From Legionella cincinnatiensis (GTDB lineage: Bacteria; Pseudomonadota; Gammaproteobacteria; Legionellales; Legionellaceae), in the NCBI RefSeq assembly GCF_900452415.1, contig NZ_UGNX01000001.1, positions 3,286,001 through 3,350,000 of the forward strand: 64,000 bases of DNA, in the 5' to 3' direction. The notes beneath the pieces were generated by a model. The model did no database searches. It had not been told where the DNA came from and worked only from the letters and a program-made list of their open reading frames with translations. Each line of letters begins with the position of its first letter. The first letter of the stretch is position 1. Shown here in pieces: positions 25,396-55,676 of this stretch. Made by a program: the position numbers and the translations under genes.

Positions 25396-25543
25396 AATGA
25401 AGCAAATTCATTTCTGATGAATTTTAAATTCATGCGTTCTCAATCCGCTGTAACTGACCTCAGATAATTTCACTACCCTATTAACCACTTTCTTCGGCTC
25501 AGAGATATAGTCCGTTTTACTTTCTGCTGGGCATACAAATTCT
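25396..25543 (-). pseudogene. Relic of an integrative element (alpA-like 3' end joined to integrase fragment)
   Basis: 25396-25461 matches 14962-15027, the 3' end and downstream sequence of the AlpA-like gene, with a few indels. 25457-25543 matches about 19108-19193, an internal piece of the integrase gene that encodes the segment around EFVFPADSKTGYIYEPKKAVNRVV (key parts FVFPA, PKKAVN). The two pieces are fused, about 4 kb apart in the live island. A deletion relic of a related island is the simplest explanation. Confidence 0.75.
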
Positions 25544-26645
25544 AGAAATAAACGCCAATTCGAGCAGAGACAGTGTCTGCACCTCTGCCGGTACCCCAGG
25601 TAGGTGTATTTACAAGGCCCTCAGCAGCAGCGCCATTAGCAAATTGATTTACTCCATAGTCAATATCATGGCGGTATTCGATGCTTCCTACGGTATCTTT
25701 CCACAGGGAAATATTAAATGCCCCTATAAAACGCTGTTGCGGCAAATTTAGAGCTAGGGCATCTTTAGTCCATTGATAACCAACACCAATAGATGAGGGC
25801 TTATTAAATGCTCTAAATGTCATGTTTATTTCTGTGTGTAACGCTTGTGGTTTTGCACCGCGCCCATTAAAACTCAAATCCTCTGGCCTAAATGCCTGAG
25901 CTACACCAACCCATTCTACTGCAAAGTTAAATCGCTCATAAGCCATATTGCCATAAACATTTACAGCCGGGGTCTTGCGACTTGCTTCATTTCCATAAGA
26001 TAAGGAACCAAAACCACCAAACCTTCCAGGATTTGCTTCTGTATTTTGCATCCCCGTCGCATCTTCCACAGAACTGATGTAACTTGTTCCCAATTCTCCA
26101 GTAATTTTATCCAATTTAAAACGATACCCCCCATTCGCACCACTTACTCCTGATTGTCCTAAAGTGGTATCACCTCGATAAATATAGGCTGCAACAAAGA
26201 GTCCACTGTCTTCTTGATACTTATATCCCCAAATGAACGGTTTTGCTTTGTTTTGTGTCATATTTGCCGTTAAAGGAGCACTTATCATAGAGCTCGAATA
26301 ACGTCCAAAGGGCAGGTACAATTGTCCCGCAGCAAGATTAAACGGAGTTTTATCCTCATTACCTATATTTACAAAGCCCATATCAAGATTAAATGCTGAA
26401 TTATTAATCTTGGGCCCCATCTCTAGCAGGCTTTCATTAGAAGCACTAGCAATATAAGCTTCTTCATTTTGGTTCAATGCGGTGGCAATGTCTAATTCAC
26501 TTAAATCTAAGGTTAAATCAACGTTTGTTTTTTGTAAGGGGTCTAGTGGCGTTTGTATTATTTGATATGGCCACTGTTGCTCTTGCTCTGCATAGAGCGG
26601 CAACGATAAACAGACTAAAGCCCATATTATTTTCTTGCACTTCAT
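25542..26645 (-). CDS. lbtU: LbtU-family siderophore porin (outer membrane receptor)
   Basis: A 367-residue outer-membrane beta-barrel protein with a signal peptide (IIWALVCLSLPLYA) and a C-terminal aromatic residue (ARIGVYF) typical of barrel assembly. The segment LTLDLSELDIATALNQNEEAYIASA in part (DLSELDIATAL, EEAYIASA) and QLYLPFGRY, SARIGVYF match the LbtU family by memory. Family knowledge: LbtU of L. pneumophila is a TonB-independent legiobactin receptor. The gene sits directly behind Fur-like boxes (26891-26942) and beside an NRPS siderophore cluster with no TonB receptor, so it probably takes up that siderophore. AGGGG precedes the ATG. Confidence 0.82.
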   Translation of the reverse strand: MKCKKIIWALVCLSLPLYAEQEQQWPYQIIQTPLDPLQKTNVDLTLDLSELDIATALNQNEEAYIASASNESLLEMGPKINNSAFNLDMGFVNIGNEDKTPFNLAAGQLYLPFGRYSSSMISAPLTANMTQNKAKPFIWGYKYQEDSGLFVAAYIYRGDTTLGQSGVSGANGGYRFKLDKITGELGTSYISSVEDATGMQNTEANPGRFGGFGSLSYGNEASRKTPAVNVYGNMAYERFNFAVEWVGVAQAFRPEDLSFNGRGAKPQALHTEINMTFRAFNKPSSIGVGYQWTKDALALNLPQQRFIGAFNISLWKDTVGSIEYRHDIDYGVNQFANGAAAEGLVNTPTWGTGRGADTVSARIGVYF

Positions 26646-26890
26646 AAACTACCCCTACTTATTTTTTACTTCTACTTCATGGCCTATGGGGTACACCCAC
26701 TTTCCAAAGCCAATTGATCTACTCCTCTTTATTAAAATAAATGCAGTCCTTCTGACTTAAATTTGTAAGACATACATCTCACTCATCGCTGATGAGACAT
26801 AAAGTGATTAATAGTACGTTATCTTTTTTATCCTCTGATGCTTTAGTCAGAAATAGAGTTAAATTAAACGAATTTGAATTTAAATGCAAA

Positions 26891-26905
26891 TGATAATTGT
26901 TCTCA
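26891..26905. promoter_or_regulatory. Fur box candidate upstream of lbtU
   Basis: TGATAATTGTTCTCA matches the 7-1-7 Fur core (TGATAAT-N-ATTATCA) with two mismatches, inside GCAAATGATAAT...CATTTGATAAT. The same GCAAATGATAAT block recurs before the ornithine hydroxylase at 31532. Confidence 0.7.
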
Positions 26906-26925
26906 TTTGATAATATTTTTCACTT

Positions 26926-26942
26926 GAATAATAATTATTATC
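26926..26942. promoter_or_regulatory. Second Fur-like palindrome upstream of lbtU
   Basis: GAATAATAATTATTATC holds the perfect palindrome ATAATAATTATTAT (26928-26941), resembling overlapping Fur half-sites. Confidence 0.5.
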
Positions 26943-26975
26943 CTTTGAGTCGTATTTAGAATAATTTATCGGTGG

Positions 26976-54674: not shown

Positions 54675-54756
54675 ATGCACAACCGCCCTGATCTCAATGT
54701 TACAAGAGTAACGTCACAGCCATCTGGAACCAGATATGGAAAAATAAAGATAAGTT

Positions 54757-54975
54757 TTATTTGTCCGCAGATTGTGCTGCTAAATGCTGGCGCAAGCTAA
54801 GCGGCCGCATGTCAACCCATGTCTGCTCAATGTATGCCAAACACTCTTGTTTTTTTCCACTAAAGCCTATGGTGCGCCAGCCCGGTGGCACGGTTTTATA
54901 ATCAGGCCAAATAGAATACTGTTCTTCTTGGTTAATCACCACGTGGAACAGGGTATCTTCACTATCAAAACTCAT
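54757..54975 (-). CDS. MbtH-like NRPS accessory protein
   Basis: A 72-residue MbtH protein: INQEEQYSIWPDYKTVPPGW and GKKQECLAYIEQTWVDMRPLSLRQH in part (ECLAYIEQTWVDMRPLSL) include the invariant Trp residues. It binds and activates adenylation domains. ATG 54975 is preferred over 54996 because GAGGAA lies just upstream. It is the OrbH counterpart. Confidence 0.95.
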   Translation of the reverse strand: MSFDSEDTLFHVVINQEEQYSIWPDYKTVPPGWRTIGFSGKKQECLAYIEQTWVDMRPLSLRQHLAAQSADK

Positions 54976-55062
54976 CTTAAATTCCTCATCAAACAATATT
55001 GATCATGCCTATGTAGATACATATGCATTTTCTATTTTATTTAGATCATGAGCGACGATATC

Positions 55063-55584
55063 CTACACATAATGCAAACATCGTTGGGTTACATCACGTA
55101 CCATAAAGTGCACTAGAGCTTGAGAGACTTTCAACTTAGCTGCAGTTTCTTTCAACGTGCAATCATCAAAGCGCACCATCTCAAAAGCAGTACGCGTACG
55201 TAACGGTAAGGAAGCTAACATGCTAATGATTCGGCCAAGCAAATCATGCTGTATTGTTTGTATTTCTGGTTCACTACAAAGTGACGGCACATTAATCCCA
55301 TCGTCTTCCTCAACGTAAAGACGACATTCAAAAGCTCTGCGCCGCGTATAATCAATGGCTAAATTACGCACCATGCGCACTAAATATCTCAAAGGTTGAC
55401 GTATCGGCTCGGTCCCGTTATTTTCCATGACCTTAATATAGACATCCTGCACAACATCTTCAGACAAACTGTGACTACCAATAATAGTGGTTGCCAGATT
55501 GACCAAAAAACTTCGATTTGTAATTAACACCAGACCAATTTCTTTATTCGTGTAAAGCTGATCCTGCACCATTAGCTTGCCCAT
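55063..55584 (-). CDS. ECF sigma factor, PvdS/OrbS-like
   Basis: A 174-residue extracytoplasmic-function sigma factor. Region 2 reads LSEDVVQDVYIKV and LVRMVRNLAIDYTRRRAFE; region 4 reads LPLRTRTAFEMVRFDDCTLKETAAKLKVSQALVHFMVRD in part (LKVSQALVHFMVRD), the iron-starvation type. It should direct RNA polymerase to CGTC-type promoters before the siderophore genes. I choose ATG 55584 (GAGG about 10 nt upstream) because it matches PvdS length. The large Fur-like palindrome directly upstream suggests repression by Fur-iron. No anti-sigma gene is visible. Confidence 0.9.
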   Translation of the reverse strand: MGKLMVQDQLYTNKEIGLVLITNRSFLVNLATTIIGSHSLSEDVVQDVYIKVMENNGTEPIRQPLRYLVRMVRNLAIDYTRRRAFECRLYVEEDDGINVPSLCSEPEIQTIQHDLLGRIISMLASLPLRTRTAFEMVRFDDCTLKETAAKLKVSQALVHFMVRDVTQRCLHYV

Positions 55585-55632
55585 GCAATCACTACCTCGG
55601 CCATACATTGAACAATATTGGTACTCTAACAA

Positions 55633-55676
55633 TAATAAGAATCATTGTCAATTGCAATTGATAATGATTCTTATTA
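55633..55676. promoter_or_regulatory. 44-bp near-perfect palindrome with overlapping Fur boxes
   Basis: The half-sequence TAATAAGAATCATTGTCAATTG pairs with its complement across the centre (55654/55655) with one mismatch (55647/55662). AATCATTGTCAATTG and CAATTGATAATGATT are both Fur-like 7-1-7 cores. It lies directly upstream of the sigma gene, the expected control point of the locus. Confidence 0.85.

Follow-up and report, generated by a model that had tools for sequence, protein, structure and literature searches.

Hydroxamate siderophores that are assembled by non-ribosomal peptide synthetases (NRPSs) in Gram-negative bacteria are, as a rule, re-imported via TonB-dependent receptors. The closest described relatives of the system considered here, an NRPS siderophore locus in a 64,000-nucleotide stretch of the Legionella cincinnatiensis chromosome (the window), are the ornibactin (orb) and malleobactin (mba) clusters of Burkholderiaceae. 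For B. xenovorans LB400, the adenylation (A) domain codes DVETLGGISK, DLTKVGHVGK, DVWHVSLIDK and DGEYTGGITK have been tabulated for malleobactin (Table 2 of PMC4786211). It has also been proposed that the LB400 cluster is controlled by Fur, that both hydroxyornithines are formylated (mbaE) and that putrescine is the releasing amine, and the cluster has the mbaD TonB receptor (PMC4786211). The window system shares the four modules and the ECF sigma factor with the malleobactin system, but it has a GNAT acyltransferase and no formyltransferase. The bacterial strain RPE64 has been assigned to ornibactin, with the cluster located on a plasmid (PMC4906002). In L. pneumophila, an outer-membrane porin of the LbtU family is part of the legiobactin/rhizoferrin system together with LbtABC (PMC11705809; PMC5378763). 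Legiobactin is made by LbtA, which is an NRPS-independent siderophore (NIS) synthetase (PMC7857480), whereas the window system is NRPS-made. This supports the view of an initial annotation of this DNA that the two systems are distinct. According to one article, no NRPS product was known for any Legionella strain (PMC5126622), and the titles and abstract openings of the literature searched contain no description of such a Legionella NRPS siderophore locus.

The window corresponds to G000:C1:3286001-3350000 of the host genome (G000; 4.10 Mb, two contigs), and the locus was assessed between positions 25,542 and 55,676. Judged by its sequence, this 30-kb island probably makes an ornibactin-like tetrapeptide, and a porin of the LbtU family (LbtU2), which stands in the slot of the TonB receptor, is likely to return the iron complex. 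The best reading is that an ornibactin-type assembly line was acquired by transfer and adapted to a host that has no TonB receptors. A fuller scenario is put forward tentatively and with less than even confidence: a TonB-free hydroxamate NRPS system could have arisen when the cluster, on entering Legionella, swapped its receptor for an LbtU-type porin, swapped its hydroxylase, dropped formylation by copying the unit of module 4 over that of module 1, and gained an amidinotransferase for either ornithine supply or a guanidine cap. In the proposed mechanism, iron starvation would relieve Fur at a palindrome in front of the sigma gene. The hydroxylase and the GNAT acyltransferase would make N5-acyl-N5-hydroxyornithine, and the three synthetases would join acyl-hydroxyornithine, D-beta-hydroxyaspartate, serine and the same acyl-hydroxyornithine. 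The last condensation (C) domain would release the peptide by transferring it to an amine, which is putrescine in published cases, and the PvdE-type exporter would send the siderophore out. The ferric siderophore would then re-enter via LbtU2, be captured by the FhuD-type protein and be pumped in by FhuBC, and FhuF would reduce the iron. The amidinotransferase would supply ornithine from arginine. The locus keeps the inner-membrane importer and the reductase, yet it has a porin of a reportedly TonB-free family at the receptor position, which raises the testable question of whether an LbtU-type barrel serves a hydroxamate peptide. On this reading, the locus illustrates how the replacement of one end can adapt a biosynthetic cluster to a new host after transfer.

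Genes and domains were called with Pfam and NCBIfam models and motifs, and selected proteins were matched against the PDB (Table 1). Read on the minus strand from the right, the locus encodes an ECF sigma factor, an MbtH-like protein, a SyrP/OrbG-like protein, FhuC, FhuB, FhuF and a binding protein, followed by three NRPS genes, the GNAT, the exporter (plus strand), the hydroxylase, the amidinotransferase, an SbmA-like ABC protein and the LbtU-family porin. Every reading frame is open. The ornibactin/malleobactin-type NRPS locus that the initial annotation had placed at 25542..55676 is therefore present and intact, with four modules, and all genes named by it, from the ECF sigma factor to the ornithine hydroxylase, were recovered at their places with the Pfam and NCBIfam models. 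Three further genes in the range, those for the amidinotransferase, the SbmA-like ABC protein and the LbtU-family porin, had been left unnamed.

For comparison, 11 reference clusters were used. One is located on plasmid p1 of Caballeronia insecticola (L125), which we take to be that of strain RPE64. The other 10 belong to Burkholderiaceae genomes that were drawn from an even sample of 398, in which 89 genomes contain an OrbJ-type match with E<=1e-280 (identities of 40-46%); by its coordinates, the Caballeronia cluster is also among these 89 (G755). The match is nearly end to end in 74 of the 89 genomes (start at or before residue 8, end at or after residue 1543), and the 15 partial matches may be another NRPS. 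The 10 further references were read as two 20-kb pieces each, and MbtH was searched in Caballeronia only. A rare-peptide scan of genome contigs had yielded 76 loci, mostly Pseudomonas NRPSs, of which four were used to reach Burkholderiales genomes; the remaining loci were used a single time, in a local database.

In Caballeronia, the genes are arranged in the order ECF-MbtH-SyrP-FhuC-FhuB-FhuF-binding protein-[exporter reversed]-OrbI-OrbJ-PvdA-TonB receptor-formyltransferase-GNAT. All 10 further references have the reversed exporter upstream of OrbI, followed by OrbI, OrbJ and PvdA. Eight of the 10 have the binding protein, FhuF and FhuB farther upstream; the fetched pieces reach FhuC and SyrP in six and the sigma gene in five (those of G863, G864 and G698 stop short of it). 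As far as the pieces reach, the core order ECF-SyrP-FhuC-FhuB-FhuF-binding protein-OrbI-OrbJ is kept in eight of the 10. Besides the full-length matches in Table 1, the binding protein has two partial pieces in G784 and no match in the sequence retrieved from G596 and G661, and a ninth reference has a truncated FhuB with 56% identity. The window system thus shares with the ornibactin cluster of Caballeronia the sigma-to-OrbJ core, the module order, the A2 and A3 codes (with I for V once each), the hydroxyornithine-type signature of A1 and the GNAT, which lies between OrbJ and PvdA, as in the window, in four of the 11 references (G895, G596, G661, G864). The gene order that the initial annotation had given for orb holds for the sigma-to-OrbJ core, but not for the place of the exporter and the pvdA-orbA-pvdF segment. 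The exporter had been expected after the NRPS genes; in the references it precedes OrbI, and the TonB receptor follows pvdA, so that the window exporter, which lies beyond the GNAT, appears as relocated. The pvdA-orbA-pvdF segment as such is absent. The interpretation of the cluster was thus partly supported, being right in kind and wrong for the receptor end.

A gene similar to the Caballeronia TonB receptor adjoins pvdA in each of the 11 references, whereas the window has none. The host genome as a whole contains no match to the TonB-dependent receptor family PF00593, a model that matches three of 14 control genomes; TonB, ExbB and ExbD were not searched. The Caballeronia formyltransferase matched in eight of the 11 references (not in G895, G596 and G661), and no match was obtained in the window or in the 45 genomes of the genus, host included; for the latter search, an empty result is uninformative unless a positive control goes with it, and the control here is a local one, the same query finding the eight references. 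Queries with the amidinotransferase and LbtU2 matched none of the 11 references, and for the SbmA-like protein the matches were weak (22-26%) and confined to the exporter gene, in three references. The hydroxylase in the place of pvdA is only 35-38% identical to the PvdA proteins of the references (eight compared), which share 63-92% among themselves, and its nearest solved relative is MbtG; pvdA itself therefore seems to have been exchanged. The ABC gene is 63% identical to a gene at G000:C1:2827188 and 61-63% identical to copies in six other genomes of the genus. Since both this gene and LbtU2 have paralogues at other loci of the host genome, the receptor end of the cluster is best described as carrying Legionella-type genes.

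LbtU is said to have been described by Chatfield in 2011 as a TonB-independent receptor. An LbtU-family porin is common to the legiobactin/rhizoferrin system of L. pneumophila and the window system, in which LbtU2 is a shortened paralogue of the core LbtU (G000:C1:68503). LbtU2 scores 299 bits against NF033652 (cut-off 90) over model positions 20-327 of 327, and it consists of an N-terminal stretch that resembles the signal peptide of core LbtU and the barrel. A comparison of both genes over 328 codons gave a dN of 0.146 and a dS of 1.33, and the resulting ratio of about 0.11, which is rough because dS is near saturation, indicates that LbtU2 is old and constrained, with purifying selection relative to the core copy. 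The LbtU family occurs in 45 of 45 genomes of the genus. In the 44 other genomes, LbtU2 has no match above 75% identity with one exception: in G009, a contig ends in a fragment of 94 residues (80%), which represents another LbtU type, being 93.6% identical to the second copy of G020. Second copies of LbtU are present at G010:C1:285948, G020:C1:2811793 and G021:C6:46642; they share 94-96% identity with each other and are distinct from both core LbtU and LbtU2. LbtU was thus duplicated more than once in the genus.

It may be asked whether LbtU2 belongs to the system at all. The island could make the siderophore while LbtU2 and the SbmA-like gene lie next to it by chance, with uptake through core LbtU, LbtP-type porins or no dedicated gate. 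Both genes indeed lie at the edge of the island and have a native-like G+C content (0.411 and 0.338), core LbtU is present in all 45 genomes of the genus, and LbtU2 has no N-terminal domain. We consider this explanation unlikely, as both genes are located inside the stretch that is absent from the related genomes G021 and G020, LbtU2 has no closer counterpart in the 44 other genomes apart from the G009 fragment of the other type, and the region upstream of LbtU2 holds two Fur-like sites and has a 12-mer in common with the hydroxylase/exporter promoter region. Fur-like sites were scored as 19-mer match counts and compared with 1000 shuffles. On both strands of the window, 15 sites reach at least 14/19, eight of which lie wholly inside promoter regions of the cluster. 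Two 14/19 sites are found upstream of LbtU2 (equalled in 12/1000 shuffles), and one of them includes the 12-mer GCAAATGATAAT, which occurs a second time in the intergenic region between the hydroxylase and exporter genes; no further copy was found in the window or in 12 other stretches that were scanned. The latter region contains a 14/19 site at 31532 (25/1000 shuffles), and another Fur-like site is located upstream of NRPS1 (10/1000 shuffles). The palindrome at 55633-55676 in front of the sigma gene contains four 19-mers of at least 14/19, which no shuffle equalled (0/1000).

The domain order of the synthetases, A-T / C-A-T-E-C-A-T / C-A-T-C-T, was derived from Pfam matches and motifs; the motifs of the C, A and T domains are present, and three genes are used where the references use two. 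OrbI is split into two intact genes: NRPS1 ends with a TAA at 47140-47138, and the ATG of NRPS2 at 47133 is preceded by GGAG. A frameshifted orbI can thus be ruled out, and the overlap of NRPS1 and NRPS2 in the list of open reading frames (ORFs) does not reflect a frameshift. In the references, OrbI is a single open frame of 3176-3387 codons in eight of 11 clusters and is interrupted elsewhere in three (G843, G596, G784). The A codes were read by alignment, with the final K assumed. Codes and A-T trees cover eight of the 11 references, leaving out the three interrupted ones, in which the OrbI frame is split into overlapping ORFs, but never at the T1-C2 border.

The codes DLTKIGHVGK for A2 and DVWHISLIDK for A3 were re-read from the alignment and are identical to those of the initial annotation, which had assigned them to Asp, followed by an epimerisation (E) domain, and Ser. 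Each of these codes, for beta-hydroxyaspartate and serine, shows one I-for-V change relative to the eight references and to Table 2 of the LB400 study (PMC4786211). Together with the module order, the codes support the earlier proposal of an Orn-(D)Asp-Ser-Orn skeleton. A1 and A4 both have the code DLEAAGGISK, and the signature of oxidised ornithine (E239, G301, I330) was found in both. Elsewhere, this code occurs in A1 of the references G895 and G661 and in A4 of two Glaciimonas proteins (P0012, P0022) and of P0005. The A4 code is DGEYTGGITK or DGEATGGITK in all eight references, and A4 of the window differs from this formyl-hydroxyornithine type. In G698 (L165:10044-19928), the A3 code is DVWHFGSIGK and not the Ser code, which hints at another third residue in that cluster.

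The A1-T1 and A4-T4 units of the window share 94% protein identity and 98.2% DNA identity over 1,656 bp (dS 0.080), compared with 41-46% between the corresponding units in the eight references. In the tree, the two window units are sisters (100/100) and distant from the A1 clade (100/99), and the pair is placed beside the Glaciimonas-type A4 units with a support of 92/99, which is below the star threshold of the tool. This placement makes unit 4 the most likely source of the copy and unit 1 the part that was overwritten. The event seems to postdate the divergence from G020, for which core lbtU gives a dS of 0.49. Such a recent natural overwriting of one NRPS loading unit by another resembles what synthetase engineers aim to achieve. 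With A1-T1 derived so recently from A4-T4, the first and the last module probably load one and the same acyl-hydroxyornithine. The best PDB match of the GNAT, SidF, is an N5-hydroxyornithine transacylase, and the GNAT is 34-48% identical to those of nine of the 11 references (not G878 and G698). From the A codes, the near-identity of A1 and A4 and the relation of the GNAT to SidF, the predicted product is acyl-hydroxyornithine - D-beta-hydroxyaspartate - serine - acyl-hydroxyornithine with the same acyl group twice.

The amidinotransferase matches SxtG (6u1r, E 1.6e-129), HsvA (5wpi, E 6e-127) and AGAT (1jdw, E 4.1e-120) over nearly its whole length, with E values between 6e-118 and 2e-129 for the family overall, but it adjoins a siderophore NRPS locus. 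The alignments keep the active-site stretches around an Asp, a His and a Cys, which we take to be the catalytic triad. Amidinotransferases of this family yield ornithine from arginine, whatever the acceptor. Most likely, the enzyme turns arginine into ornithine, which would be used twice per siderophore molecule, with a guanidino compound as by-product. In L. pneumophila, putrescine is likely formed from arginine through agmatine and not from ornithine (PMC7857480), which makes an additional source of ornithine plausible. Alternatively, the enzyme could tailor the product by guanidinylating either an ornithine side chain or the terminal amine, which would then be agmatine and not putrescine. 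The siderophore would in both cases be a guanidino-ornibactin. The close relationship to SxtG and to HsvA is in line with this idea, as is the position of the gene among biosynthetic genes in a cluster type that lacks it in all 11 references. HsvA prefers polyamine acceptors. Tailoring is nevertheless the doubtful option, as the reaction itself yields ornithine, the substrate of the pathway, and many of the best 119 relatives outside the window (67-77% identity; many bacteria and metagenomes) are named plainly glycine amidinotransferase or amidinotransferase.

Several observations weigh against a refitted, TonB-free ornibactin system. Compared with core LbtU, LbtU2 is shorter by about 160 residues in the N-terminal domain, and a structure prediction of LbtU2 without an alignment was uninformative (mean pLDDT 30). 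The formyltransferase is also lacking in three of the 11 references, so that its loss is not specific to Legionella. The hydroxylase scores higher with the lysine enzyme MbtG (339 bits) than with the L-ornithine 5-monooxygenase 3s5w (305 bits) and KtzI (295 bits), which makes its substrate less certain than the codes suggest. The choice between ornithine supply and product tailoring for the amidinotransferase is a guess. In G596 and G661 (two of 11), there is no uptake gene within 6.7 and 7.5 kb upstream of the exporter, and the core order is thus not universal. No Fur-like site comes within three mismatches of the consensus, the sites reaching only 14-15/19, and the region upstream of core LbtU scores no higher than 13/19. 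Finally, OrbS-type promoters (TAAA-N17-CGTC) were not found, and none of 10 TAAA-N16-18-CGT matches between 25300 and 56000 is intergenic. These missing promoters, the missing receptor and formyltransferase and an orbI in two pieces might also indicate that the locus is decaying or silent and that the transferred cluster no longer produces a siderophore. This is very unlikely given that all frames are open, that the first orbI part ends in a proper stop and the second has a GGAG and an ATG, that the C, A and T motifs are present and that LbtU2 is under purifying selection relative to its paralogue. A refitted cluster remains the best reading.

Two related Legionella genomes lack the island at the corresponding site. 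G021 is 93-94% identical to window positions 20340-25330 and 56019-56548, and its two matching blocks enclose 5.3 kb of other genes. In G020, the identity is 90% for positions 22057-25215 and 89% for both 55731-55941 and 56027-56885, and the intervening genes span 7.3 kb. Overall, the flanks have 88-94% DNA identity, and the foreign stretch extends from about 25,331 (edge from G021) to 55,730 (edge from G020). Because both genomes hold different cargo there, the site is variable and not simply empty. In G021 (L109:5860-11151), the cargo comprises an erythromycin-esterase-family gene and a LysR gene, and in G020 (L110:4866-12218) BBP2 porin, Rce1-like, E1-E2 ATPase and bestrophin-like genes. 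The site resembles an insertion hotspot. The genes of the core from the exporter to the sigma factor have a G+C content of 0.42-0.51, compared with 0.34-0.43 in 13 of 14 measured flanking genes, the exception being a DUF927 gene (0.467). The higher G+C content claimed for the NRPS and transport genes thus holds for the core block, but not for the hydroxylase (0.365) and the ABC gene; the amidinotransferase has 0.429.

An OrbJ-like query gave generic NRPS matches in all 45 genomes of the genus, and an identity above 38% was reached only in the host. This rules out, for these 45 genomes, that the cluster is common to other Legionellaceae. In an even sample of the class, an E value of 1e-250 was reached by the host alone (1/369). 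With a SyrP-like query, the only protein searched in 143 Legionellaceae genomes, the four best foreign matches had 43-49% identity (L121-L124 in G093, G059, G050 and G046); three lie beside other NRPS genes and one beside none, and no orb-like cluster was present in the 7-20 kb stretches read around them. The OrbJ protein searches returned the best 120 of about 8,000 scored candidates each. Among the matches listed, OrbJ of the window is 59% identical to P0005, 57% and 55% to the two Glaciimonas proteins and 80% to the partial metagenome protein P0121. In a tree, these five proteins form one clade (100/100) apart from eight references (100/100), and the three full-length relatives share the A4 code of the window. 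The occurrence in one of 45 genomes, the other DNA at the site in two relatives and the Glaciimonas proteins as nearest named OrbJ relatives support the acquisition by transfer that had been suggested initially. A direct transfer from Burkholderia appears less likely than an unsampled or Glaciimonas-like source. The database entry for the window amidinotransferase (P0231) comprises five member sequences in three contigs; together with P0121, this suggests that other strains may also carry the refitted cluster.

Table 1 Features of the siderophore locus (positions in the window; identities to reference clusters leave out partial pieces)
Feature	Positions	Strand	Evidence
LbtU2, LbtU-family siderophore porin paralogue, 367 aa	25542..26645	-	NF033652 E 4.2e-89; 74% to core LbtU of host genome
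LbtU2 upstream region	26646..26975	-	two Fur-box-like sites at 26886 and 26924; 12-mer GCAAATGATAAT
ABC_membrane_2 / SbmA-BacA-like ABC transporter, 590 aa	26976..28748	-	Pfam; best PDB match 6tqe
L-arginine amidinotransferase (AGAT/SxtG/HsvA family), 375 aa	28907..30034	-	PDB matches 6u1r, 5wpi, 1jdw
Divergent L-ornithine/L-lysine N-hydroxylase, in pvdA place	30068..31483	-	PF13434 E 4.6e-103
Hydroxylase/exporter divergent promoter region	31484..31645		Fur-box-like site at 31532, 14/19
Cyclic-peptide/siderophore exporter, PvdE/OrbE/MbaN type	31646..33352	+	TIGR01194 above cut-off; 58-61% to 11 references
GNAT acyltransferase, hydroxyornithine acyltransferase type	33306..34364	-	PF13523; best PDB match SidF, E 1.4e-49
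NRPS3, OrbJ/MbaB type, C-A4-T4-C5-T5, 1645 aa	34376..39313	-	Pfam and motifs; 40-42% to references
NRPS2, second part of OrbI/MbaA, C-A2-T2-E-C-A3-T3, 2607 aa	39310..47133	-	Pfam and motifs; ATG 47133
NRPS1, first part of OrbI/MbaA, A1-T1, 627 aa	47138..49021	-	probable recent copy of NRPS3 A4-T4
Ferric-hydroxamate periplasmic binding protein, OrbB type	49135..50073	-	PF01497; 50-55% to 8 references
Siderophore-iron reductase FhuF, OrbF type	50070..50879	-	TIGR03951 above cut-off; 40-45% to 9 references
FhuB-type double permease, OrbD type	50876..52888	-	NF007869 E 4.7e-210; 48-50% over length to 8 references
FhuC-type ATPase, OrbC type	52873..53700	-	NCBIfam; 60-62% to 7 references with fetched piece reaching FhuC
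SyrP/OrbG-type aspartate beta-hydroxylase, TauD family	53697..54680	-	PF02668; 57-60% to 7 references with fetched piece reaching SyrP
MbtH-like protein, 72 aa	54757..54975	-	PF03621 E 1.2e-23; 58% to Caballeronia (only reference searched)
ECF sigma factor, OrbS/MbaF type	55063..55584	-	ATG 55584; NF005448 188.5 bits, slightly below cut-off 190; 46-49% to 6 references with piece reaching sigma gene
Inverted repeat, Fur-operator-like, upstream of sigma gene	55633..55676		arms of 22 nt, 95% complementary, no spacer

Some neighbouring regions may also be mentioned. To the left of position 20340, where the similarity to G021 stops (L109 868), genes for a phage-type integrase, a DUF927 protein and AAA/DUF4143 proteins are located at 18894-20123 and 13177-17105; they probably represent a second, separate insertion that adjoins the siderophore island. 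To the right, the small protein encoded at 56069-56494 is kept at 94-97% in G021 and G020; it has no Pfam or NCBIfam match and presumably resembles IcmD/DotP. The 689-aa protein encoded at 57031-59100, for which no Pfam match was obtained, occurs in five of the 45 genomes of the genus including the host, with 61-90% identity in the other four. About 37 kb past the window, the host has another large NRPS region (G000:C1:3387633-3406084) with frames of 4950 and 2394 codons, and similar frames occur in G009, G020 and G021. The first 20 kb of the second contig of the host genome match six plasmid records, all of which are from Legionella, the best being an L. longbeachae plasmid (98.6%).

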